Shown: piece after piece, positions 21,911 through 34,157 of the stretch
Layout: every line of letters begins with the position of its first letter
Position numbering within the stretch: position 1 is the stretch's first letter
Origin: Paracidobacterium acidisoli
GTDB taxonomy: Bacteria > Acidobacteriota > Terriglobia > Terriglobales > Acidobacteriaceae
NCBI RefSeq assembly: GCF_003428625.2
Contig: NZ_QVQT02000003.1
Location: 62,001 to 126,000 of the forward strand
Length of the DNA: 64,000 bases
Reading direction: 5' to 3'
Notes under the pieces: generated by a model
What the model saw: the letters and a program-made list of their open reading frames with translations, nothing else
Told to the model about the DNA's origin: nothing
The model's database searches: none
Translations under genes and position numbers: made by a program

Positions 21911-22687
21911 GTGCCGAAAAGCCGCACCCTGAGTGAACTGCCGGTTCAGCCCCTGGATAAAAACGGTTTTATACCCCTCTACTATCAGATTCAGCGGGCG
22001 CTGATGGAAAAGATTCATTCCGGTGAACTCGGCGAGGGTGATCCTCTGGCGTCGGAAGAAGAGCTGTCGCGGTACTACCAGGTGAGCCGGATGACGGCGC
22101 GCCAGGCGCTGCACGGGCTGAAGATCAGCGGATACGCCTTCAGTGAAAAGGGGCGCGGCACATTCGTAACCCGGCCGAAGCTCGAAAAGAACATCATGCA
22201 CCTGCAGGGTTTTACCGAAGACATGCGGCAGCGTGGGATGAAACCGAGCTCGCGTCTGCTGCAGCAGACGGCCGTGCCGCCCACCGAAGAGCTGATGCAG
22301 AGACTGAAGCTCGATGCGGGGGACCGGGTGCTGCGTCTGCGGCGTCTGCGGCTGGCGGACGGGATTCCTATGGCGCTGGAGGATTCGCATATTCCGCTGC
22401 GTCAGTTTCCAGGGCTGGACCGGATCGACTTTGCGAAGCACTCGCTGTACCAGACGCTGCGTGAGCGGTATGGCGTGCGTGTGGGTTATGCGGACGAGAT
22501 TATCGAGGCTCTGCCCGCAACGCGTGAGGAGTCGGAGCTGCTGAATATCCGCAGCAAGGCGAGCGTGCTGTCGATTACGCGGACGATCATGACAACGCAG
22601 GAGTCACCGATTGAATTTGCGTGCTCGCGGTATCGCGGCGACCGCTACCGGGCATCGATCCGGGTACCCATGACAACCATCGAATAA
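21911..22687 (+). CDS. GntR-family transcriptional regulator, HutC/UTRA subfamily
   Basis: A 258-residue regulator. Residues about 20-90 are a winged helix-turn-helix (PLYYQIQRALMEKIHSGEL, SRYYQVSRMTARQAL, GRGTFV), and about 105-250 form the UTRA effector domain (LQGFTEDMRQRGMKPSS, LRRLRLADGIPMALEDSHIP, IEFACSRYRGDRYR). Members such as NagR/YvoA respond to glucosamine-6-phosphate or N-acetylglucosamine-6-phosphate. The start is GTG at 21911, with AGGAG eight bases upstream (AAGAAGGAGAAATC). It sits between nanE and the flavoprotein gene and probably controls the module at 15.9-22.7 kb. Confidence 0.9.
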   Translation: MPKSRTLSELPVQPLDKNGFIPLYYQIQRALMEKIHSGELGEGDPLASEEELSRYYQVSRMTARQALHGLKISGYAFSEKGRGTFVTRPKLEKNIMHLQGFTEDMRQRGMKPSSRLLQQTAVPPTEELMQRLKLDAGDRVLRLRRLRLADGIPMALEDSHIPLRQFPGLDRIDFAKHSLYQTLRERYGVRVGYADEIIEALPATREESELLNIRSKASVLSITRTIMTTQESPIEFACSRYRGDRYRASIRVPMTTIE

Positions 22688-22707
22688 CCGCGTTGCAGCC
22701 CTCGTTC

Positions 22708-23898
22708 ATGCCGGAGGGCCGCTCTATACCGGGTGGCATTCGGTCCGGTGGCGGACTGGTGGATACTGGTTCTGTGAGAGACGGAGACGCAGTCTGCTGG
22801 GATGCGATTGTGGTGGGCGCAGGACCGGCCGGCTGCGCCGCAGCCTATGATCTGTCGATTGCCGGACGCTCCGTGCTGTTGCTGGACAAGGCGGATTTTC
22901 CGCGCCCCAAGGCATGCGCCGGCGGACTGACTCGTAAGTCGCTCAGCGCTCTTCGCTATTCGGTGACACCGGTGGTGCGGGAGCGTCCCAGTGCAATCAC
23001 CGTGGAAAAGAATGCGGCGGAGAGCGCCGTGATTCGCAGCCTCATGCCGATCTGCGCGATGACCGTTCGCGACGAGCTGGATGATTTTTGCCTGCGGCAG
23101 ACGGTTGAGGCCGGTGTACAGTTCGAGCGCATCGATCCGATTGAGACCATCGACGAGATGAACCGGGAGGTCCATCTTCGGACGCGCGCGAGGTACTTCC
23201 GGGCACAGTTTCTTGTCGGTGCCGATGGTGTGCACAGCCAGGTGCGCCGGCTTACCGGAGAGGCGCGATGGTTTCGGCGAGGATTCGCGCTGGAGGCGAA
23301 TGTGCGCACCCCGGATGCAGCTTCAGCGGCGATGGTCTTCGATCTGGGGACGGTGAGCGGTGGTTACGGGTGGGTTTTTCCTAAAGGAGATCACCTCAAC
23401 ATCGGGCTATATACGATCGACAGCTCAGAGAAGCTGAATCGCGAGCGACTGGCAACATATATTGCGACCCGCTGTGGAGCCGTAAACACTGAGCAATTTG
23501 TAGGACAGTACCTGGGCTTTGGAGCGGAGCAGGCCGAGACGAGCAGCGCCCGCATCTTTCTGGTGGGAGATGCCGGCGGATTTGCCGATCCGCTGACGGG
23601 TGAGGGGATTTACGGTGCGATCATGAGCGGACAGGCAGCTGCAAAGGCGATTGAAGGCGATCTTCGCGGAAAGAAAGCCGCCGCCTCGGCGTTTATGCAG
23701 GCAACGGCGCGGCTGCGTGCCGATCTTCGCCTCTCCTCTGCAGGAGCGCGCTGGTTTTATGCGCATCCGGATACAGGGTATCGGGTACTGACAGCACCCA
23801 TGCTGCGCAGTCTTGTTCTGCGTGCTTATGCGAGCGGCAGCGGTGTGGCCGCTTTGGCGCAGGCAGTGAAAAATATCGTCGAAATCCTCCCTCTGTAA
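22708..23898 (+). CDS. Geranylgeranyl reductase family FAD-dependent oxidoreductase
   Basis: A flavoprotein of about 396 residues. The dinucleotide-binding motif AIVVGAGPAGCAAAYDL begins near residue 34, followed by LLDKADFPRPKACAGG, which carries the CxGG-type signature of the geranylgeranyl reductase family. The second FAD motif is IFLVGDAGGFADPLTGEGI. Family members reduce double bonds of isoprenoid chains, for example in lipids, quinones or chlorophyll. The start is uncertain: the frame is open from 22621 inside gntR, ATG 22708 is used here, and a GTG at 22774 is also possible. None has a clear ribosome binding site. The link to the regulator gene 20 bases upstream is positional only. Confidence 0.85.
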   Translation: MPEGRSIPGGIRSGGGLVDTGSVRDGDAVCWDAIVVGAGPAGCAAAYDLSIAGRSVLLLDKADFPRPKACAGGLTRKSLSALRYSVTPVVRERPSAITVEKNAAESAVIRSLMPICAMTVRDELDDFCLRQTVEAGVQFERIDPIETIDEMNREVHLRTRARYFRAQFLVGADGVHSQVRRLTGEARWFRRGFALEANVRTPDAASAAMVFDLGTVSGGYGWVFPKGDHLNIGLYTIDSSEKLNRERLATYIATRCGAVNTEQFVGQYLGFGAEQAETSSARIFLVGDAGGFADPLTGEGIYGAIMSGQAAAKAIEGDLRGKKAAASAFMQATARLRADLRLSSAGARWFYAHPDTGYRVLTAPMLRSLVLRAYASGSGVAALAQAVKNIVEILPL

Positions 23899-23928
23899 GC
23901 ACACTTTCAGATCGGCAAATTTCACAGC

Positions 23929-23972
23929 GGTGACCTATATCACAACTGTTTGGGCCATAACGCTGTTAAGAT
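23929..23972 (+). promoter_or_regulatory. CRP/FNR-type box at class II spacing before a -10 element, upstream of the oxidase operon
   Basis: GGTGA-N6-TCACA at 23929-23944 matches nine of ten bases of the E. coli CRP consensus. TAAGAT at 23967-23972 can serve as a -10 element, placing the box centre about 42 bases before the expected transcription start, the usual class II activator position. No good -35 element is present, as expected for activator-dependent promoters. The ctaC start is about 250 bases further on. Confidence 0.45.
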
Positions 23973-24226
23973 GGGTATTCGGAGAGGGATTCGTGATGCG
24001 GAAATCTCTCAGTACTCAACTCAAACTGCTCAGGCAGCAAGAAGGCCGGGAGATTCATTCTCTCAACCTGAATTCCGTCACACACCGCATCGGGAATTCA
24101 CCTTCTTATATCGTTTGTTCTCTGCTCAGAAGAGTCCGGTCTTTCTGCGGGTAATTCCCGGGGCACACAAGACCGTCGCGAGTTCTGTATCAACGAGTTG
24201 TTTCATTGAGCGCAGTGACAGAAAAG

Positions 24227-25276
24227 ATGATTCGAGACTGGACGCACAAGACGGGCTGTTCCCGGTCCCTGTTTATACTCCTGCTGTTTCTTTCGGCGGC
24301 CGGCCGGGCTTTTGCGGATGTCGCGCAGAATACGCCGAGCATATTTGCTCCGTCCTCGACACCGTCGAATGAAATCTTTCATCTGTCTCTCTTTGTTCTT
24401 GGCATAGTGGGCGGAATCTTTGTGGTTGTAGGTGGTTTGCTCGCCTATGCGGTGATCCGCTTTCGCGCGCGCAACCAGGAAGACGACACGGAGCCTGCGC
24501 AGATATACGGCAGTAATCAGATTGAGCTGGCATGGACTGTGGTGCCGGTACTCATTGTCGTGGTGCTGTTTCTGACCACGGCGCGCATGATCTTCGCGAT
24601 CCAGGATGCTCCGAAGCCGCAGTCGGCGCTGGATGTAACGGTGGTGGGGCATCAGTTCTGGTGGGAGTTCCGTTATCCGAAGCTGGGAATTGTAACTGCA
24701 AATGAGCTGCATGTTCCGCTGAGCAGCACCTCCGATCCGAAGCCGACGTTTCTTCATCTGCTCTCCGCCGATGTGGATCACAGCTTCTGGGTGCCACAGC
24801 TCGCAGGCAAGACCGATCTGATTCCGAATCATCCGAACGACATGTGGATCGATCCGCTGCATCCGGGAGTGTATGTGGGGCAGTGTGCGCAGTTCTGCGG
24901 CATCGAGCATGCAAAGATGCTGCTGCGCGTCTACGTGGATACGCCGGAGCAGTTCGCGGCCTGGGTGAAAGAGCAGCAGCAGCTAGGGATGCAGGATCCG
25001 CACGTGGCCGCGGGGCGGCACGTATTCGAGACCGAAGCGTGCATGAACTGCCATACGATCAGCGGCACGGATGGCAGGGGAACCTTTGGTCCGGATCTGA
25101 CGCACCTGATGAGCCGCGACACGATTGCGGCGGGCGCGGCGCCAAATACTCCGCAGAATCTGCGGGTATGGGTGAAGAACCCGGACGATCTTAAGCAGGG
25201 CTCTTTGATGCCGGCGATGCAGCTAAGCGACCAGCAGCTTGATGATCTGGTGGCTTATCTGTCCACCCTTCACTAA
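24227..25276 (+). CDS. ctaC: Cytochrome c oxidase subunit II with fused cytochrome c domain (caa3 type)
   Basis: A subunit of a haem-copper oxidase that receives electrons through the CuA centre. The 349-residue protein has a signal peptide (ending GRAFAD), two membrane helices (about 50-75 and 95-120), the aromatic WWEFRYP segment, and CuA ligands in DHSFW and GQCAQFCGIEHAKM. The C-terminal part (about 265-349) is a cytochrome c domain with CMNCH and a distal Met in GSLMPAM. The ATG at 24227 was chosen; the frame extends to a TTG at 24206, and no strong ribosome binding site separates them. It is first in an eight-gene operon. Confidence 0.95.
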   Translation: MIRDWTHKTGCSRSLFILLLFLSAAGRAFADVAQNTPSIFAPSSTPSNEIFHLSLFVLGIVGGIFVVVGGLLAYAVIRFRARNQEDDTEPAQIYGSNQIELAWTVVPVLIVVVLFLTTARMIFAIQDAPKPQSALDVTVVGHQFWWEFRYPKLGIVTANELHVPLSSTSDPKPTFLHLLSADVDHSFWVPQLAGKTDLIPNHPNDMWIDPLHPGVYVGQCAQFCGIEHAKMLLRVYVDTPEQFAAWVKEQQQLGMQDPHVAAGRHVFETEACMNCHTISGTDGRGTFGPDLTHLMSRDTIAAGAAPNTPQNLRVWVKNPDDLKQGSLMPAMQLSDQQLDDLVAYLSTLH

Positions 25277-25308
25277 ACATCTGCTCCCGGAGGGGCGGGA
25301 AGAAAAGA

Positions 25309-27000
25309 ATGGCTGATCAAACACTGCCGATTTCGGGTTCGGTCGATGTGACACCGCCGCATGCGGCGGCAGGAACATTTCTCGAGCGGCTGCACGGCTG
25401 GGTGGTCACAGTCGATCACAAGAAGCTGGGCATTCTGTATGTGGTGTACTCGCTGATCTTTCTGCTGGTGGGCGGCGCAGAGGCGCTGGCGATTCGCATT
25501 CAGCTGATGATTCCGGGAAATCATTTCCTGACGGCAGCGACCTACAACCAGTTCTTTACGATGCATGGCACCACGATGGTCTTTCTCGTGGGCATGCCGA
25601 TTCTGTTCGGGTTTGCGAACTATCTTGTGCCGCTGATGATCGGCGCGCGGGACATGGCGTTCCCGCGGCTGAATGCCTTCAGCTTCTGGCTCACTGCGCT
25701 GGGCGGCCTGCTGCTGTACTTCAGCTTTATTGGCGGACCGGGCCTCTACGGAATGGGCGCGGCTCCCGATGTGGGCTGGTTCGCTTATGCTCCCCTGACC
25801 GCGCACGTGTTTTCTCCAGGCAACGGAACGGATTACTGGGCGCTGGCGCTGATTGTGAGCGGCTTCGGCACGCTGGGCACCGCGATCAACATTGTGGCGA
25901 CGATTATTTCCATGCGCTGCAAGGGTATGTCGCTGCTGCGTATGCCTCTGTTTGCATGGCTGATGCTGGTGGTGAGCGCGCTGACGCTGGTGACGATCAC
26001 GCCACTGACGGCAGCGCAGTTCATGCTGCTGATCGACCGCTATCTGGGCGGCCACTTCTTCGACACACAGGCCGGCGGATCGGCGCTGGTCTGGATACAC
26101 TTCTTCTGGATCTTCGGACATCCGGAAGTGTACGTGCTCGTGCTGCCGGCCTTTGCGATTGCGAATGAGATTATTCCGGTGTTTTCGCGCAAGGCCATCT
26201 TCGGGTATCCGGCGATGGTGGCCGCGTCAGTGGGCATCGCGTTTGTGAGCCTGGGCGTATGGGCGCACCACATGTTCACGGTCGGCATGACGTCGGTCTC
26301 GAATGCCTTCTTCGTGCTCTCGACGATGCTGGTGGGCATTCCGACAGGCATCAAAATCTTCAACTGGCTGGCGACGATGTGGGGCGGCAAGATTCGTTTT
26401 GCTACGCCGATGCTGTACTGCACGGCATTTGTCTTTCAGTTTCTGATTGCAGGCCTGACGGGCATTATTTTGTCGGTGGCGCCGTGGGACTGGCAGCTGC
26501 ACAATTCTTACTTTGTGATTGCGCACTTCCACTATGTGCTGGTGGGCGCGATCGTATTCAATATCTTTGCGGCGATTTACTACTGGTATCCCAAGGTGAC
26601 GGGCCGCATGATGAGCGAGCGGCTGGGCAAATGGAACTTCTGGCTCTTCCTGATCGGTTTTCACGTCACCTTCGACACGATGCACTTTCTCGGATTCCTC
26701 GGGATGCCGCGCTCGATTTACACCTATGAGCCGAACCGTGGGTGGAATGGCCTGAACATGGTGGTGTCGATCGGTGCGTTCATTCAGGGCGTGGCAGCGT
26801 TGATCTTCGTGTACAACCTGGTGTGGTCGTACTTTCACGGAGAGGTGGCGGGCAACGATCCCTGGGATGCATGGACGCTGGAGTGGGCGACACCGTCGCC
26901 GCCGCCGGATTATAACTTCGCCACTGACCCTGAGGTAAAGAGCCGCAGACCGTTATGGGATCTGAAGCATCCGGATGATCCGGACTGGAAGTACGAATAA
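25309..27000 (+). CDS. ctaD: Cytochrome c oxidase subunit I
   Basis: The 563-residue catalytic subunit with about 12 membrane helices, carrying the low-spin haem and the haem-CuB oxygen-reducing site and pumping protons. Visible are MHGTTMVF with a haem ligand His, FWIFGHPEVYVLVLPAF with the CuB His, the cross-linked Tyr and the Glu that marks the A1 family, and GVWAHHMFTVG with the two other CuB ligands. HFHYVLVG carries the His ligands of both haems. GGAGG lies 17 bases before the ATG, with GGGAAGAAAAGA closer. The last codon overlaps the start of subunit III by one base (TAATG). Confidence 0.98.
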   Translation: MADQTLPISGSVDVTPPHAAAGTFLERLHGWVVTVDHKKLGILYVVYSLIFLLVGGAEALAIRIQLMIPGNHFLTAATYNQFFTMHGTTMVFLVGMPILFGFANYLVPLMIGARDMAFPRLNAFSFWLTALGGLLLYFSFIGGPGLYGMGAAPDVGWFAYAPLTAHVFSPGNGTDYWALALIVSGFGTLGTAINIVATIISMRCKGMSLLRMPLFAWLMLVVSALTLVTITPLTAAQFMLLIDRYLGGHFFDTQAGGSALVWIHFFWIFGHPEVYVLVLPAFAIANEIIPVFSRKAIFGYPAMVAASVGIAFVSLGVWAHHMFTVGMTSVSNAFFVLSTMLVGIPTGIKIFNWLATMWGGKIRFATPMLYCTAFVFQFLIAGLTGIILSVAPWDWQLHNSYFVIAHFHYVLVGAIVFNIFAAIYYWYPKVTGRMMSERLGKWNFWLFLIGFHVTFDTMHFLGFLGMPRSIYTYEPNRGWNGLNMVVSIGAFIQGVAALIFVYNLVWSYFHGEVAGNDPWDAWTLEWATPSPPPDYNFATDPEVKSRRPLWDLKHPDDPDWKYE

Positions 27001-27596
27001 TGAGCGCGATACCTACTGTTCCAGAGTTGCAGGATCAGCCATGGCACCTGCCGTCACGCGGCCGGATCGGCATGCTGTCGCTGATCATCGGCGAGTCGGC
27101 GATCTTTACAATCTTCGTCGTTGCTTATGTGTTTTACATCGGCAAGAGCCTTTCAGGACCGACGCCGGGGCAGGTGCTTGAGGTTCCGATCTTCAACACG
27201 ATCTGCCTGCTGTCGAGCAGTATTACGATCTGGCTGGCGGAGCGCAGGATCGAGCGCAATGAAATAAAGGCCTTCGGTCTGTGGTGGGGCGTGACGATTG
27301 CGCTGGGTGTGGTCTTTCTGGTGGGGACGGGGCTTGAGTGGTACAAGCTGATTTATCACGACGGGCTGACCATCAGCACGAACCTCTTCGGCACGACGTT
27401 TTACTCGCTGGTGGGTCTGCACGCGACGCACGTGGTGATCGGTCTGGCGATGCTGCTGCTGGTGCTGGTGTTCACGCTGATGGGGCGGGTGACAGAGCAC
27501 CACGCGGAGCGCATCCAGGTGCTGGCGCTGTACTGGCACTTTGTGGATGCGGTGTGGGTTGTAGTGTTCACAGTGGTGTATATCGTTGGGCGGTGA
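27000..27596 (+). CDS. ctaE: Cytochrome c oxidase subunit III
   Basis: A 198-residue membrane subunit with about five helices, near the usual size of the short bacterial form. LLSSSITIWLAER and SLVGLHATHVVIGLAML are typical, as is the ending YWHFVDAVWVVVFTVVYI. It is translationally coupled to subunit I through TAATG. It stabilises the catalytic subunit and has no redox centre. Confidence 0.95.
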   Translation: MSAIPTVPELQDQPWHLPSRGRIGMLSLIIGESAIFTIFVVAYVFYIGKSLSGPTPGQVLEVPIFNTICLLSSSITIWLAERRIERNEIKAFGLWWGVTIALGVVFLVGTGLEWYKLIYHDGLTISTNLFGTTFYSLVGLHATHVVIGLAMLLLVLVFTLMGRVTEHHAERIQVLALYWHFVDAVWVVVFTVVYIVGR

Positions 27597-27600
27597 AAGA

Positions 27601-28467
27601 GTGACGGACACAGTACAACACGAGGCAGGACGGGAGCGCGAAGGCACGATTCATCTGCCTGCTCCTACGGCGTGGCCGATTGTTCTGGCGTTCGGCGTGA
27701 CGCTCGGCTTTGCCGGGCTGGTGACCAATCTTGGCGTAACGGTTCTCGGCGTGATTCTGATTGCTGTGGGAAGCATCGGCTGGTTCCGGCAGGTGCTGCC
27801 GCACGAGCAGCATGAGGATGTTCCTGTACGCGTGCAGCCGGTGACGATCGAATCGTCGCGCAAGTTCGTGGAGCGCATCGAGGTGAGCGAAGAGCATCGC
27901 GCGCATCTGCCGGTGGAGACGTATCCGGTGCTCTCAGGCGTAAAGGGCGGCATCGCAGGCGGCATCGCGATGATCTTTCCGGCTCTGGCGTACGGGCTGA
28001 TCGCGCAGCACAGCATCTGGTATCCGATTAATCTTCTGGGCGGCGCGGGCGTGGCGAACTGGCGCAACCCGACGACGGCCGATATTGCGGCGTTTCACTG
28101 GGAAGGCCTGCTGGTGGCGAGCGTGATTCAGATCGTCGCCTGCCTGCTGGTGGGGCTGCTGTACGGAGCCATGCTGCCGATGCTGCCGCGCCGGCCGGTG
28201 CTGCTCGGCGGGATTATCGCACCCCTGCTGTGGACGGGGTTGCTGCACTCGACGCTCGGCGTGATCAATCCTGTGCTCGATGAGCATATTGCGTGGGGAT
28301 GGTTTGTGATTTCGCAGGTGACATTTGGTGTGGTTGCGGGACTGGTGGTGGCGCGCGAAAGCCGTATCCGAACGGCACAGTCACTGCCGTTTGTGGTGCG
28401 AATGGGCATTGAAGCTCCAGGGCTGATGCACGACGATCATTCACAACACTCCGGGGAGAAACACTGA
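27601..28467 (+). CDS. Polytopic membrane protein of the oxidase operon, unrecognised
   Basis: A 288-residue protein with a charged N-terminus (about 1-25) and a helix pair at about 26-62 whose LPAPTAWPIVLAFGVTL and GWFRQVLPHEQHE resemble the small subunit IV of bacterial oxidases. A soluble loop of about 45 residues follows, then four or more helices (about 112-255) of unknown type and a His-rich end (DDHSQHSGEKH). The GTG at 27601 sits four bases after subunit III; a TTG at 27586 would overlap it. The end overlaps the next gene by three bases. Position argues for a structural or assembly role in the oxidase or bc complex. The C-terminal helical part matches no family I know. Confidence 0.8.
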   Translation: MTDTVQHEAGREREGTIHLPAPTAWPIVLAFGVTLGFAGLVTNLGVTVLGVILIAVGSIGWFRQVLPHEQHEDVPVRVQPVTIESSRKFVERIEVSEEHRAHLPVETYPVLSGVKGGIAGGIAMIFPALAYGLIAQHSIWYPINLLGGAGVANWRNPTTADIAAFHWEGLLVASVIQIVACLLVGLLYGAMLPMLPRRPVLLGGIIAPLLWTGLLHSTLGVINPVLDEHIAWGWFVISQVTFGVVAGLVVARESRIRTAQSLPFVVRMGIEAPGLMHDDHSQHSGEKH

Positions 28468-29138
28468 TGCGCCTGCCGCTGATCGTCGCCGCTGCGTGCG
28501 CGCTGGTCTTTTCGGTCTCCGGATGCACCCGTGCACCGGGATATCCGACTGAGGAAGCGCTGCGGCCTCAGGATCAACTGGACTTTCATGTGCTGTACAG
28601 CCAGAACTGCTCGGGATGCCATGGAGCGAAGGGACAAAATGGCGCAGCGATCGATCTGGCGAATCCGGAGTATCAGGCACTGGTCGATGATGCCACGATG
28701 AAGAAATGGATCATCGGAGGCATGCCGGGAACAGAGATGTCTGCCTTTGGGGCATCCGCGGGCGGCATGCTGACGGATACTCAGATCAATGCTCTGGTCG
28801 CGGGAATGCGGAAGGAGTGGTCGAAGCCGGATGTGTTCGGGGGACAGACGCCTCCGCAATATGCGCAGGACAAGGCGGGCGACGCGGCGCACGGGCATGC
28901 GGTGTATATGACGGCGTGCGCATCGTGCCATCAGCAGGCGAAGCAGCAGATTACCGATGCGAATTATCTGGCACTGGTGAGCGATCAGGCGCTGCGGTCG
29001 ATCGTTATTGCAGGACGTCCGGACATCGGACATCCCGACTGGCGCAATGATGTGCCGGGGAAACCGCTGAGCGCACAGGATGTAACCGATGTGGTTACGT
29101 ATCTGGATTCGCTGCGCAGCCAGGCGGAGGCGAAGTGA
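28467..29138 (+). CDS. Dihaem cytochrome c lipoprotein
   Basis: A 223-residue protein with a lipoprotein signal peptide (VFSVSGC, lipid on Cys20). Two cytochrome c domains carry CSGCH near residue 50 and CASCH near 152, each followed by a Met candidate. It is expected to be anchored on the periplasmic face and to carry electrons between the bc-type complex and the oxidase, both encoded in the same operon. It is coupled to the preceding gene by the overlap TGATG. Confidence 0.92.
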   Translation: MRLPLIVAAACALVFSVSGCTRAPGYPTEEALRPQDQLDFHVLYSQNCSGCHGAKGQNGAAIDLANPEYQALVDDATMKKWIIGGMPGTEMSAFGASAGGMLTDTQINALVAGMRKEWSKPDVFGGQTPPQYAQDKAGDAAHGHAVYMTACASCHQQAKQQITDANYLALVSDQALRSIVIAGRPDIGHPDWRNDVPGKPLSAQDVTDVVTYLDSLRSQAEAK

Positions 29139-29190
29139 GACAGGGACGGAGAGAAAAGGCCGGCCAGGAGGAAAAGGCGGGGGTGAAAAG

Positions 29191-29784
29191 GTGAGCGACG
29201 AGATCGAAGTAAAGAGTGAGCAGCAGAGCGCAGAGGATAAGCTGGCCGTCTCGCGCCGCTGGCTGCTGCTCAAGCTGGGCGTCGCTTTCAACGGCCTGGT
29301 TGGCCTTGCGCTCGCCACGCCTGTGATTCGCTATCTGCTGTCGCCGGTAAAGCGCGATTCGGCCTACAACTCGTGGGTGACGCTGGGGCCGATCGAAGGC
29401 TTTCCAGTGGGAGAGACGCGGCTTGCGGACTTCAAAAACCCATTCAGTCGTCCGTGGGACGGAGAGACACAGGGCGTGGCCTGCTATGTCCGCCGCAACA
29501 CCAAAAGCGAGTTTCAGGTCTTTGCCGTGAACTGCGCGCACCTGGGATGCCCGGTGCGGTGGTTCCCGCAGTCGCAGCTTTTCATGTGTCCATGCCACGG
29601 CGGCGTGTATTACGCGGATGGATCGCGTGCCTCGGGACCGCCGGAGCGCGGACTTTTCACCTACGACTACAAATTAGCCGGTGGGCAGTTACAGATTAAT
29701 GCCGGGCAGATGCCGACGCTTTCAAATACGGCGAAGCTGGTGCAGATCGGCAATGCCAAAGGGAATCCTCCATGCGCTGGGTAA
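29191..29784 (+). CDS. Rieske iron-sulphur protein of a bc-type complex
   Basis: A 197-residue protein with an N-terminal cytoplasmic segment, one membrane helix (about 32-52; LLLKLGVAFNGLVGLALATP) and a periplasmic Rieske domain. The cluster ligands are in NCAHLGCPVRWF and CPCHGGVYY, including the disulphide cysteines. The GTG at 29191 with GGGGGTGAAAAG before it was chosen; the longer frame from 29089 overlaps the previous gene and its product is implausibly basic. The last 13 bases overlap the cytochrome b gene. Confidence 0.94.
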   Translation: MSDEIEVKSEQQSAEDKLAVSRRWLLLKLGVAFNGLVGLALATPVIRYLLSPVKRDSAYNSWVTLGPIEGFPVGETRLADFKNPFSRPWDGETQGVACYVRRNTKSEFQVFAVNCAHLGCPVRWFPQSQLFMCPCHGGVYYADGSRASGPPERGLFTYDYKLAGGQLQINAGQMPTLSNTAKLVQIGNAKGNPPCAG

Positions 29785-31280
29785 AACAAACGTACGACTG
29801 GCTGGAACACCGGCTGCAGCTGGAAGGGCCGGTGAAGGATGCCGCGCTGCATCCGGTTCCGCGCAACACGGCGAGCTGGTGGTATGTCTTCGGCAGCGCC
29901 GCATTTACGCTGCTGTTTCTGCAGATCGCAACGGGAATTCTGCTGGCGATTGTGTATGTGCCGTCGGCGGGCCAGGCCTGGAACAGCCTGAATATTCTGA
30001 ACCATCAGCTGGAGCTGGGGTGGTTCCTGCGCGCCATGCACGGGTGGGGATCGAATTTCATGGTCGCCATTGTGCTGATTCACATGGCGCAGGTATTCAT
30101 GTTCGGCGCGTACAAATTTCCGCGTGAGCTGACCTGGATTCTTGGTGTTTTTCTGCTGCTGATGACTCTGGGCATGGCGTTTACGGGCCAGGTGCTGCGC
30201 TTTGACCAGGATGCATACTGGGGGCTGGGAATCGGTGCATCGATCATGAGCCGTGTGCCGGTGATCGGCGGCTCACTGGTACATCTGCTACTGGGCGGAC
30301 CCACGATTGCCGGAGCCACGCTGTCCCGATTCTTCGCGCTGCATGTGTTTGTCATTCCCGGCGCGATGCTGGTGTTTGCCGGTCTGCATGTATGGATGGT
30401 GCTGAAGCTGGGTGTGAACGAGTGGCCGATGCCGGGACGCATAGTGAAGCGTGCCACCTACGAGAAGGAGTATCACGATCTCTCGCACAAGGACGGCGTT
30501 CCCTTTGTTCCGGTAGCGCTGTGGAAGGACGCGGTCTTCTCCGGAGCGGTGATCGCGGCGGTGGCCATCTGCGCGTTTGTCTTTGGCCCCTATGGGCCGG
30601 GCGGACAGCCGGACCCTACGATCATTCAGACGGTTCCGAAGCCGGATTTCTTCTTTTTGTGGATCTATGCGGCGCTGGCTTATTTGCCACCCGCACTCGA
30701 GACGCCATTCATACTGATCGTTCCGGTGATTGGAATCGCCGTTCTGCTGGCACTGCCGTTCTATGCGTCAGAGGGTGAGAAGAGCTGGCATCGCAGACCG
30801 GTGGCTGTGCTGACACTGGTCTCCGTAGCGGTGGGCTGGGGCGTGCTGACGCATCTGGCAACCTATACGCCGTGGAGCCCGCACATGGATGCCTGGAGCA
30901 GCGATCCGGTGCCGGGGAAGAATCTCCATAATGCAACACCGCTGGTACGCGAAGGAGCGGTCGTCTTTCAGGGCAAGCAGTGCCGCAACTGTCACTCGAT
31001 CGGCGGAGCCGGCGGCGAGCGCGGCCCGGCTCTCGATGCCGTTGCCACGCGCCTGACGCGCGATCAGCTCATCTTTAAGGTCGAATTCGGCGGCGGCAAT
31101 ATGCCTGCGTATGGAAAGAACCTGTCGCCTCCGGAGGTCGAGGCCCTGGTGAGCTTCCTCGAAACGCTGCACCCGGAGCACGAAGCACCGGCCACCGACC
31201 CGTCACGGAAAGAAGTTCAGGACGCAGCGGCGATGGCCGGCGCTGCACCAGCTACCGGAGCACCTTCAGGAGCGAAGTAG
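29772..31280 (+). CDS. Cytochrome b with fused C-terminal cytochrome c domain
   Basis: A 502-residue quinol-oxidising subunit. Eight or so helices include the haem His pairs: RAMHGWGSNF with LIHMAQ, and ALHVFV with GLHVWM. The Qo-site motif that is PEWY in most cytochromes b reads PDFF here (PKPDFFFLW, near residue 295). After the last helix a cytochrome c domain (about 385-470) has CRNCH and a Met candidate in GGNMPAYG. The tail is rich in Ala, Pro and Lys. The fusion combines b and c1 functions, so with the Rieske protein it forms a compact bc complex. It overlaps the Rieske gene by 13 bases. Confidence 0.93.
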   Translation: MRWVKQTYDWLEHRLQLEGPVKDAALHPVPRNTASWWYVFGSAAFTLLFLQIATGILLAIVYVPSAGQAWNSLNILNHQLELGWFLRAMHGWGSNFMVAIVLIHMAQVFMFGAYKFPRELTWILGVFLLLMTLGMAFTGQVLRFDQDAYWGLGIGASIMSRVPVIGGSLVHLLLGGPTIAGATLSRFFALHVFVIPGAMLVFAGLHVWMVLKLGVNEWPMPGRIVKRATYEKEYHDLSHKDGVPFVPVALWKDAVFSGAVIAAVAICAFVFGPYGPGGQPDPTIIQTVPKPDFFFLWIYAALAYLPPALETPFILIVPVIGIAVLLALPFYASEGEKSWHRRPVAVLTLVSVAVGWGVLTHLATYTPWSPHMDAWSSDPVPGKNLHNATPLVREGAVVFQGKQCRNCHSIGGAGGERGPALDAVATRLTRDQLIFKVEFGGGNMPAYGKNLSPPEVEALVSFLETLHPEHEAPATDPSRKEVQDAAAMAGAAPATGAPSGAK

Positions 31281-31287
31281 CAGAGGA

Positions 31288-32145
31288 ATGCAGGACTCCG
31301 TCAACGCGCTGTTCACGCAGTGGGATGTTCCTCCGCTGGTGACCTGCGCGCTGGCGGTGACGGCGGCGATTTATATCGCTGGCTGGATACGCATACGGCG
31401 AACAAGGCCGCAGCAGTTTCCGGCAGCGCGGCTGGCGGCGTTCCTGGGTGGAATTCTGGCTCTTTTCGTAGCGGTCGCCTCGCCTCTCGATACATTCAGT
31501 GAATCCCTGCTGTTCATGCACATGGCGCAGCACTTTGTGCTGATGTCGGTTGCGCCACCACTGATTGTGCTGGGTGCGCCGGTGGTGCCGATGCTGCGCG
31601 GGCTGCCGCGCGGGCTGATTCGCGGTGTCCTGCGGCCGGTGTTCCGGTCGCAGGTCATTCACAGGCTGGGCAGTGTTCTGGTGCGTCCGCGCGTGGCATG
31701 GATTGCAATGAATGCGGCGTTCCTCCTGTGGCATATTCCGGCGGCATATGAGTTCGCGCTGCGGTCTGAGAACTGGCATAACTGCGAGCATGCCTGCTTC
31801 TTCTTTACGAGTCTGATGTTCTGGTGGCCGATCATCGAGCCATGGCCGTTTCGCAGAAGGGGATCGCGCTGGATGATCCTGCCTTATCTGCTGCTGGCGG
31901 ATTTTGTGAATACCGGGCTTTCGGCGACGCTGTGCTTCTCAGGCAGGTTGTTTTATCCGAGTTACGCGGCCGTGGCGCGGCCTTTCGGGCTGAGCGCTCT
32001 CAACGATCAGATTGCCGCAGGCGCGTTCATGTGGGTATGCGGATCGACAATCTTTCTGATTCCGGCGATCGGGATCACGATGCGGCTGCTGGCACCGAAG
32101 AGGCGGCGGACGGCAAGTCCGGCCTGGGTTGCCGGCGCGCGGTAA
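31288..32145 (+). CDS. ctaG: Cytochrome c oxidase assembly protein CtaG (caa3 type)
   Basis: A 285-residue membrane protein of the caa3_CtaG family with about seven helices. Typical marks are LFMHMAQHFVLMSVAPPLIVLGAP, with His residues that may bind copper, LWHIPAAYEFAL, HNCEHACFFFTSLMFWWP and the C-terminal DQIAAGAFMWV. It helps assemble the oxidase, probably the copper centre. It starts seven bases after the cytochrome b gene and closes the operon. Confidence 0.92.
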   Translation: MQDSVNALFTQWDVPPLVTCALAVTAAIYIAGWIRIRRTRPQQFPAARLAAFLGGILALFVAVASPLDTFSESLLFMHMAQHFVLMSVAPPLIVLGAPVVPMLRGLPRGLIRGVLRPVFRSQVIHRLGSVLVRPRVAWIAMNAAFLLWHIPAAYEFALRSENWHNCEHACFFFTSLMFWWPIIEPWPFRRRGSRWMILPYLLLADFVNTGLSATLCFSGRLFYPSYAAVARPFGLSALNDQIAAGAFMWVCGSTIFLIPAIGITMRLLAPKRRRTASPAWVAGAR

Positions 32146-32225
32146 TTCCCGCTTGTTCGTTCCGGGCCGGCCAGCCATACTCTCGACAGGCGGATCTGCA
32201 TCTATATCTGTCGGAATAGTTCTTC

Positions 32226-34157
32226 ATGGCCTCCGGTCCTCTCACACGATCGCGTAAAGGCTGGCCGAACAGCCAGCCGCTGCTGCTGATTGCGCTGGCG
32301 GTGGTCGCGCTGTATTTCTGCCGGGATATTTTTATTCCGCTGGCGATGGCGCTGACGTTCAATTTTTTGCTCGCGCCCGTGGTGATGCGGGTGGAACGCC
32401 TCCGCCTGGGGCGGGTTACGGCGGTGATTCTGGTGATGGCCGCGGCCTCGGCTGTTGCTGTCGGCATTGGATGGATCGTCGGCAGCCAGGTGATCGGTGT
32501 GGTCAACGACCTGCCGAATTACCGGGATAATATCCACGACAAAATCGTTTCGATTCATGCGCCTGCCGGCGGTCCGGTGGGGCGGGCGATCAACAGCATC
32601 AAGGAGATCGGTGAGGAGGTTTCGGGCGAGCCGGCCTCGTCAAGCAGCGCCATGACTCCGCCATCGCTGGCGCATTTTTCGCGCCTGTCCCGCCGCGCAA
32701 GGGAGGCGCAGGAGCGCGAAGATCGTGAGAAGGCGGAGGCCAATCCAAAGCCGATGCCGGTCACGGTGGTGCAGGCGCCGGAGTCGGAGAGAGCTTATCT
32801 GCGCGAGCTGCTGCTGCCGGTGCTGCGGCCACTGGGTACCCTGGGCATGGTGGTGATCTTTACCATCTACATGCTGGTGAAGCGGGAAGACCTGCGCAAC
32901 CGCCTGCTGCTGCTGGCGGGCATGGGACGCATGAGCCTGATGAGCCAGGCGCTGAACGATGCAGCGGAGCGCATCAGCAGTTATCTGGGAATGAATGTGC
33001 TGGTGAACGCCAGCTATGGCGTGGTCTATGCCGGCGGTCTGTATCTGCTGCATGTGCCGAATGCGACGCTGTGGGGCGTGCTGATCGGGATTTTGCGGCT
33101 GGTGCCGTATATCGGCACGCTGATTGCGGGAGCGGCAACGCTGATTTTTACGCTGGCGGTGTTTCCGGGTTGGTGGCATCCGCTGCTGGTGCTGGTACTG
33201 TTCGGCGTGCTGGAGATTGCCGTCAGCAATTTCATCGAGCCATGGCTGTATGGAAGAAATACGGGGATCTCAGCCTTTGCTCTGGTGATGAGCGCGCTGG
33301 TGTGGACATTGTTGTGGGGATGGGCAGGACTGGTGCTGTCGACCCCGCTGACGGTGTGCCTGATTGTGATGGGACGGTATGTTCCGCAGCTTTCCTTTCT
33401 GTATATTCTGCTTGGCGATCAGGCGGAGCTGTCTCCAGAGGCAGGTTTTTACGAGCGCCTGCTGGCCATGGATCAGGTGGAGGCGCATGCGATCGCCGAC
33501 CGCTTTCTTGAGACGCGAAATGCGATACAGCTTTATGACGAGGTGGTGCTTCCGGCGCTGAGCCTGGCGGAGCAGGACCGGCATAAAGGCGCGCTGGATG
33601 AGGCGCGGACGGCCTTTCTGTTTCAAAGTACGACGGAGCTGATTGCGGAGCTGACAGACTATGGCGCCGGCCTGACCGCGCCCGTGGAGTGCGATGAAGG
33701 GTTGACAAAGGGAAGATGCGCTCCGATTGTGTTCATGCCTGCGAGCGATCAGGCAGATGAAATTGCGGCGACGATGCTGGCTCAGCTGCTGGAACAGCGC
33801 GGCCACAAGACAATGCTGCTGCCCGCCGAGGCCATTTCTCCTGAGATTCTGAGCCGTCTGGGTGAAGAGCAGGAGACGACGGTGTGCATCTCGGCGCTGC
33901 CGCCGTTTGCCTTTGTACATGCCCGAACGCTGTGCCAGACGGTACGCCGCCATCTGCCGAAGAATCGGATTTTAGTAGGACTGTGGAGAGGCGCGGGAGA
34001 CCCGGAGAAGATCCGGGAACGCTTTGGTGCGGCACGGCCCGATGCGGTGGTGACTACACTGCGCGAAGCGCTGCTGATGATTCAGGGTGGCGCATGGCCG
34101 GGATATGAGCCTGCTTTGCCGGACGCGGAGCCGCTGTCCTCGTCTGTGAGCAGTTGA
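32226..34157 (+). CDS. AI-2E family (PerM-like) permease with long C-terminal extension
   Basis: A 643-residue protein. Residues about 15-395 form the AI-2E/PerM membrane domain, with helices near the start (LLLIALAVVALYFCRDIFIPL), a periplasmic segment, and the family box in LVPYIGTLIAGAATLIF. From about residue 400 a cytoplasmic extension follows. A helical part (YERLLAMDQVEAHAIADRF) is followed by a Rossmann-like part (about 497-635) whose PIVFMPASDQADEIAATML and ILVGLWRGAGDPE recall B12-binding-like folds but lack the DxHxxG cobalamin motif. The transported substrate is unknown. The gene lies 80 bases after ctaG. Confidence 0.85.
   Translation: MASGPLTRSRKGWPNSQPLLLIALAVVALYFCRDIFIPLAMALTFNFLLAPVVMRVERLRLGRVTAVILVMAAASAVAVGIGWIVGSQVIGVVNDLPNYRDNIHDKIVSIHAPAGGPVGRAINSIKEIGEEVSGEPASSSSAMTPPSLAHFSRLSRRAREAQEREDREKAEANPKPMPVTVVQAPESERAYLRELLLPVLRPLGTLGMVVIFTIYMLVKREDLRNRLLLLAGMGRMSLMSQALNDAAERISSYLGMNVLVNASYGVVYAGGLYLLHVPNATLWGVLIGILRLVPYIGTLIAGAATLIFTLAVFPGWWHPLLVLVLFGVLEIAVSNFIEPWLYGRNTGISAFALVMSALVWTLLWGWAGLVLSTPLTVCLIVMGRYVPQLSFLYILLGDQAELSPEAGFYERLLAMDQVEAHAIADRFLETRNAIQLYDEVVLPALSLAEQDRHKGALDEARTAFLFQSTTELIAELTDYGAGLTAPVECDEGLTKGRCAPIVFMPASDQADEIAATMLAQLLEQRGHKTMLLPAEAISPEILSRLGEEQETTVCISALPPFAFVHARTLCQTVRRHLPKNRILVGLWRGAGDPEKIRERFGAARPDAVVTTLREALLMIQGGAWPGYEPALPDAEPLSSSVSS

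Follow-up and report, generated by a model that had tools for sequence, protein, structure and literature searches.

A bc complex and a caa3-type oxidase encoded by one operon in Paracidobacterium acidisoli, with a candidate additional oxidase subunit at their junction

A 64,000-nucleotide (nt) window of contig NZ_QVQT02000003.1 from Paracidobacterium acidisoli carries a respiratory operon on its forward strand at 24227-32145, and all operon coordinates given here are positions within that window. Its genes are co-directional and in frame, and they are arranged as ctaC-ctaD-ctaE-X293-diheme cytochrome c lipoprotein-Rieske-cytochrome b/c-ctaG. The intergenic gaps in this order, with X293 counted, are 32, -1, 4, -1, 52, -13, and 7 nt, and the next gene begins 80 nt downstream of ctaG. 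A preliminary description of this DNA had reported oxidase subunits II, I, and III, a diheme lipoprotein, a Rieske protein, cytochrome b, and CtaG as co-linear genes separated by overlaps or short gaps. This arrangement is confirmed (gaps of -13 to 52 nt) and every gene it named is present, although it left out X293 (27601-28467), which lies between the oxidase and bc halves. Chance or mis-framed open reading frames (ORFs) are ruled out by strong hidden Markov model (HMM) matches and by conservation in relatives. A consensus scan of 23800-32400 returned zero sigma-70-like sites versus 2.9 in shuffled sequences and six terminator-like sites versus 8.0, results that have no bearing on internal transcription either way.

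The oxidase half begins with CtaC (24227-25276, 349 amino acids [aa]), a subunit II of the caa3 type with a fused C-terminal monoheme cytochrome c, for which PF00116, PF02790, PF00034, and TIGR02866 all match above cut-off. Ligands were counted in an alignment of the window operon with the loci of 24 relatives (25 sequences). The CuA motif CAQFC..H..M and the heme c motif CxxCH are present in 25/25, as is the Gln that replaces the usual Glu in the CuA box (CAQFC). The closest solved relative of CtaC is subunit II of the Thermus caa3 oxidase, which likewise has a fused cytochrome c (2yev_B, 7.4e-66, aligned over 38-347). CtaD (25309-27000, 563 aa) is a subunit I with an A1-type signature (PF00115, 1.6e-152; TIGR02891 above cut-off) and carries the motifs GARDMAFPR (Asp), GHPEVY, WAHHMF, TGIKIFNW (Lys), and HFHYV, whose key residues are kept in 25/25. 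With the heme and CuB histidines, the GHPEVY glutamate, and the D- and K-channel residues in subunit I, and with CuA and a fused cytochrome c in subunit II, this enzyme is a caa3 oxidase of the A1 type. CtaE (27000-27596, 198 aa) is a subunit III with five hydrophobic segments that aligns only with positions 79-257 of the 258 in PF00510, and it therefore lacks helices 1-2. The C-terminus of CtaD is also without a subunit III helix 1-2 extension.

The bc half begins with a QcrC-like diheme cytochrome c lipoprotein (28467-29138, 223 aa), matched over two stretches each by PF13442 and PF00034. Its two CxxCH motifs and N-terminal lipobox Cys are present in 25/25, and the protein is predicted to be lipid-anchored rather than membrane-spanning. 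A match to NF050122 (bc1_QcrC_actin, 1.9e-10) falls below cut-off. The Rieske iron-sulfur protein (29191-29784; PF00355, 1.2e-06) is 197 aa long from a GTG start that we place at 29191, compared with 29089 in the ORF list. It has a twin-arginine-like N-terminus (SRRWLLLKLG), keeps CAHLGC and CPCHG in 25/25, and matches the b6f-type model NF010001 below cut-off (2.2e-15). The next gene product (29772-31280, 502 aa) joins a b6 part and a subunit IV-like part (PF00033, 1.8e-42) to a C-terminal monoheme cytochrome c (PF13442, 7.1e-12); HX13H and HX14H (the four heme b histidines), CxxCH, and the Met of an NMP motif are found in 25/25. With these histidines, the Rieske cluster ligands, and a cytochrome c, the second half encodes a bc complex. 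Among solved chains, the nearest to its cytochrome b is b6 (7.8e-44, residues 6-216). In Chlamydomonas b6, heme ci is bound by the Cys of …IFYC…, which aligns with Val39 of the window protein; the absence of this Cys rules out a photosynthetic b6f identity. The operon closes with CtaG (31288-32145, 285 aa; PF09678, 2.9e-59), the copper assembly factor of caa3-type oxidases. As the preliminary description had proposed, a complete bc complex and caa3 oxidase are encoded in one unit, with a full set of catalytic subunits and their ligands kept in 25/25.

The operon encodes four CxxCH motifs, one in CtaC, two in the diheme protein, and one in cytochrome b/c, each kept in 25/25. These motifs, together with the Pfam domains, bear out the proposal that cytochrome c is fused to both cytochrome b and subunit II. 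The count of three covalently tethered cytochrome c units needs amendment, because the three c-type proteins hold four such motifs and the diheme protein is, by prediction, anchored by lipid rather than fused. Fusion of cytochrome b to a CxxCH domain is not special to this operon, since it was found in 10 of the 12 distant cytochrome b loci chosen for comparison. The stretches fetched around those 12 loci, some of them cut by contig ends, contain no homologues of ctaC, D, E, or G. A second, distant cytochrome b/c with a Rieske protein also occurs in relatives (L224:6319-11918 and L225:6745-12583), and close to it lie a small cytochrome c and an ORF that contains ten CxxCH motifs.

The presence of c-type hemes on both halves led to the earlier proposal that no soluble carrier is needed, which is doubtful for the organism. 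In the genome assembly (97.4% complete), PF00034 has 26 matches, four of them within this operon. Among eleven other cytochrome c loci that were opened, seven are small single-heme ORFs (122-166 aa); by eye, a lipobox-like Cys is present in two of them and absent from the other five. The four COX1 matches in the genome correspond to the window operon, an A2-type caa3 oxidase, a CuA oxidase whose subunit II lacks heme c, and a nitric oxide reductase. The heme c-less oxidase (L033:7190-10539, contig C8) keeps GHPEVY in subunit I, but there Gln replaces the D-channel Asp (GASQMAFPR) and the K-channel position is without a Lys (PSSAEVLTW). Because its subunit II has the CuA motif and lacks heme c, it is presumably supplied with electrons by a separate cytochrome c. 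Furthermore, PF00033 identifies a single cytochrome b in the assembly, and this bc complex may therefore also feed small carriers. Thus, the operon could support a chain that dispenses with a free carrier, although the cell does not require such a chain. The reductase (L034:7062-9362, contig C13) is a NorB-type protein of 766 aa with a cytochrome c-like domain.

Alternatively, the two halves may be independent complexes that share an operon for co-regulation only, with electrons passing between them on cytochromes c that diffuse or are anchored by lipid, the diheme lipoprotein among them. The small cytochromes c and the predicted lipid anchor of the diheme protein are consistent with this arrangement, and ordinary caa3 oxidases and bc complexes each function alone in other bacteria. 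Set against it are heme c domains fused to both membrane partners, which lower the need for a separate carrier, and a junction between the halves that, over the best 80 of the 274 loci described below, is conserved more strictly than most co-regulated pairs. We consider independent complexes a serious possibility, a little short of an even chance.

Conservation of the operon was surveyed in 396 genomes of the phylum, 44 of them from the window's own family. X293 has a match in 28/396 genomes, and 24 of these carry it at full length (25 places), all in that family. A close cytochrome b/c, defined by at least 65% identity over nearly the whole protein, occurs in exactly the 24 of the 44 family genomes that carry full-length X293. 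One genome from another family (G188) also has a close cytochrome b/c, on a contig that starts inside the diheme gene, and no X293 was found there. Loci were fetched for every X293 place except the window's own, and the order from ctaC to cytochrome b/c is kept in 24/24, with ctaG next in 22/24.

A scan of named genomes yielded 274 X293 relatives, and the best 80 of these were used for locus counts. By title, these are acidobacterial and belong for the most part to Acidobacteriaceae, and a few metagenome-assembled genomes (MAGs) bear the names Bryobacteraceae, Bryobacterales, Acidiferrum, Solibacter, Sulfotelmatobacter, or gp2. Among these 80, ctaE precedes X293 in 79 (one contig begins just ahead of X293), the diheme gene follows X293 in 78 (one contig ends, and one locus, L196, truly lacks it), and cytochrome b/c is present in 73, with six other contigs stopping short of it. 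The genes that are present keep their order in 80/80, so that the survey of operon order in Acidobacteriota suggested by the preliminary description supports its arrangement in both samples. One locus has about 1.3 kb between the diheme and Rieske genes (L203:8394-9693), and no other gap of this size was noticed in the 80 loci. The arrangement in L196 is ctaC-D-E-X293-ctaG with no bc genes, and no cytochrome b was found in that genome (a 3.0-Mb record), where the cytochrome b/c query matches by its cytochrome c part only. This single MAG places X293, thinly, with the oxidase.

X293 is 288 aa long from a GTG at 27601 or 293 aa from a TTG at 27586, and searches against Pfam and NCBIfam gave no model for it at an E value of 0.001. 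Its first ~70 residues match helices 1-2 of yeast COX3 (residues 5-71; phmmer, 0.0065), and a 23-row X293 profile gave four matches in the PDB at E values up to 10, all of them to COX3 chains (best 0.0025). The Cyt_c_ox_IV family (PF12270), which is actinobacterial CtaF, is matched by 20/23 X293 members (best 1.8e-05). The predicted structure (predicted local distance difference test score, pLDDT, 76.8; predicted template modeling score, pTM, 0.59) has helices at 30-46 and 49-70 followed by four long helices at 115-141, 172-196, 204-227, and 237-258. Residues 17-77 of this model superpose on COX3 3-77 (Z 6.2, root-mean-square deviation 2.9, 56 residues aligned), on residues 80-135 of 8hcr_H, a 139-residue chain of the M. 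tuberculosis bcc:aa3 supercomplex (Z 5.5), and on Thermus caa3 chain A 540-604 (Z 4.8). Relatives also have a sister operon type in which CtaD ends with the same two-helix module (L101 and L102 by sequence, L103 by BLAST position). Thus, the module can lie within COX3, at the C-terminus of CtaD, or at the N-terminus of X293.

The four C-terminal helices have no recognized relative in sequence and structure searches. When predicted alone (pLDDT 77.2), this domain gave no Foldseek match at an E value of 0.001 and a best Z of 5.0, which does not by itself imply a new fold. There is little support for DUF6789 (PF20587) as its source: it gave weak HMM matches in 3/23 members (best 8.1e-05) and a profile-profile probability of 2.4% with three relatives, and none of the four DUF6789-like loci that were opened has a cox or bc homologue in its vicinity. 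Other weak matches of X293 are to DUF3742 (15/23, best 6.9e-04), SCO2097_fam (14/23, best 0.0017), and DUF7541 (11/23, best 1.7e-04).

With a four-helix domain that has no relative among structural subunits, weak sequence scores throughout, and assembly genes such as ctaG in the same operon, X293 might instead be a membrane protein for assembly or for insertion of a cofactor such as heme or copper, whose first helices are merely COX3-like. However, its N-terminal module corresponds to the two helices that CtaE lacks and that CtaD of the sister operon type carries at its C-terminus. Moreover, its invariant residues are spread along the whole protein rather than gathered in a Cys/His metal-binding cluster, and H142 is the sole invariant His. 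An assembly role therefore appears unlikely to us.

Rather, X293 most likely completes a split subunit III. Its first two helices would stand in for helices 1-2, which the five-helix CtaE lacks and which in the sister operon type are fused C-terminally to CtaD, and its remaining four helices may be a lineage-specific addition. We regard as probable a reading in which the operon encodes one quinol-to-oxygen electron-transfer unit with X293 as an additional oxidase subunit. Quinol, probably menaquinol, would be oxidized by a Rieske/cytochrome b complex of a b6-like respiratory kind. Electrons would then pass to the heme c on the cytochrome b subunit and to the lipid-anchored diheme cytochrome c, from there to the heme c of subunit II, and through CuA to the A1-type heme a-a3/CuB center. 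CtaG presumably aids copper loading.

Several observations weigh against this reading. Every sequence match of X293 falls below curated cut-offs, including that of the window protein to the CtaF family (0.0041; 17.6 bits, where the Pfam cut-off is 26.9 bits). In a draw of 149 genomes, PF12270 matches X293 in 3 of the 7 genomes that carry it, with a best score of 23.9 bits. Foldseek with the X293 model gave no match at an E value of 0.001 (best 0.25), and Z scores near 6 are also reached by unrelated two-helix matches, such as a transhydrogenase chain at 5.8. Likewise, the L196 arrangement comes from a single, possibly incomplete MAG. In some genomes, reported expression data place ctaC at a higher transcript level than the other superoperon genes (PMC8407424).

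The operon type itself has been described. A 2021 study of acidobacterial bc1-A1 caa3 "superoperons" states that the A1 caa3 genes always lie upstream of the bc1 genes in the strains it examined, and it suggests supercomplexes that could bypass soluble carriers (PMC8407424). In those superoperons, as in the window, the A1 caa3 genes stand immediately before the bc1 genes. The quinol-to-oxygen supercomplex raised in the preliminary description is thus a reasonable idea already published as a possibility, and the central idea of that description is not new. One strain of that study, Acidobacteriaceae KBS 83, corresponds to a locus in our set (L189) that carries this operon with X293, and its genome has two close cytochrome b/c copies. 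The main text of PMC8407424 contains neither "ctaF" nor "hypothetical", although X293 may be drawn in its Figure 1 or Data Set S1. The main text of PMC6018796, cited there as an earlier example, mentions neither caa3 nor a supercomplex. No description of X293 was found in the literature searched, which excluded most subscription papers.

The second published superoperon type, alternative complex III with A2 caa3 (PMC8407424), also combines a quinol-oxidizing complex with a caa3 oxidase in one operon and is present in this genome as well (L032:80-10772, contig C10; FeS, NrfD, and cytochrome c proteins). It differs in that an NrfD-type complex replaces the Rieske/cytochrome b pair and the oxidase has the A2 motif YSHP.

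A closer parallel to the junction is the obligate actinobacterial bcc-aa3 supercomplex, which likewise has a diheme c subunit, a bc complex coupled to an oxidase, and a subunit III split into CtaE and CtaF. In M. smegmatis, subunit III consists of CtaE plus CtaF, which provide the main contacts between complexes III and IV (PMC8361435, a review that also mentions a Bacillus PS3 supercomplex). Split and fused forms of COX3 have been discussed elsewhere (PMC4013037). By contrast with the actinobacterial system, subunit II and cytochrome b in the window each bear heme c, the diheme protein is a lipoprotein, X293 is longer by a four-helix domain, and the genome holds the other small cytochromes c noted above. 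The Bacillus QcrABC/caa3 system resembles the operon in its caa3 oxidase with a fused cytochrome c, in a subunit IV part that bears a fused cytochrome c, and in a b6-like cytochrome b, whereas the window has b6 and subunit IV as one chain, a separate diheme lipoprotein, and a single operon for both complexes. In Thermus caa3, the match to the helix 1-2 module lies within the fused chain A rather than in a separate protein.

By this parallel, the two halves might always form one particle that electrons never leave, with X293 and CtaE as a bridge like mycobacterial CtaE/CtaF. Gene order and the co-occurrence of X293 with cytochrome b/c (each 24/24), c-type hemes on both halves, the position of X293 at their junction, and the mycobacterial contacts (PMC8361435) argue for such an obligate supercomplex. 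However, co-transcription is no proof of association, the genome offers other possible acceptors for the bc complex (the small cytochromes c and the CuA oxidase without its own heme c), and X293 sits beside an oxidase without bc genes in L196. We hold this alternative only tentatively and would not expect it on balance. Physical association of the halves is plausible, though not required by the sequence, and X293 as the bridge to the bc half is a conjecture drawn from the CtaF analogy and its place in the operon. It also seems improbable to us that the full form of this proposal applies, in which X293 is a two-part subunit that completes the split subunit III and contacts the bc complex through its four-helix domain, so that four c-type hemes would lie between quinol and CuA in a III-IV supercomplex whose architecture is new.

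Two further genes on the forward strand lie outside the operon. Upstream is a geranylgeranyl reductase family protein (22621-23898; TIGR02032 above cut-off, and menaquinone reductase MenJ below cut-off at 1.1e-19) that might act on the quinone side chain. Downstream is a 643-aa protein with an AI-2E transporter domain (32226-34157) and a weak, below-cut-off B12-binding-like match at 512-585.

As an operon, the cluster adds one more example of an arrangement known from the literature on these abundant soil bacteria. The less expected part of the cluster is X293, which seems to be an overlooked and well-conserved subunit candidate. Subunit III has been described as a variable part of these oxidases that is remodeled for different partners (PMC8361435). 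If X293 is indeed the CtaF-like half of subunit III, it would add a case to this idea of remodeling, and it would offer a candidate that can be knocked out for the factor holding the acidobacterial bc complex and caa3 oxidase together.

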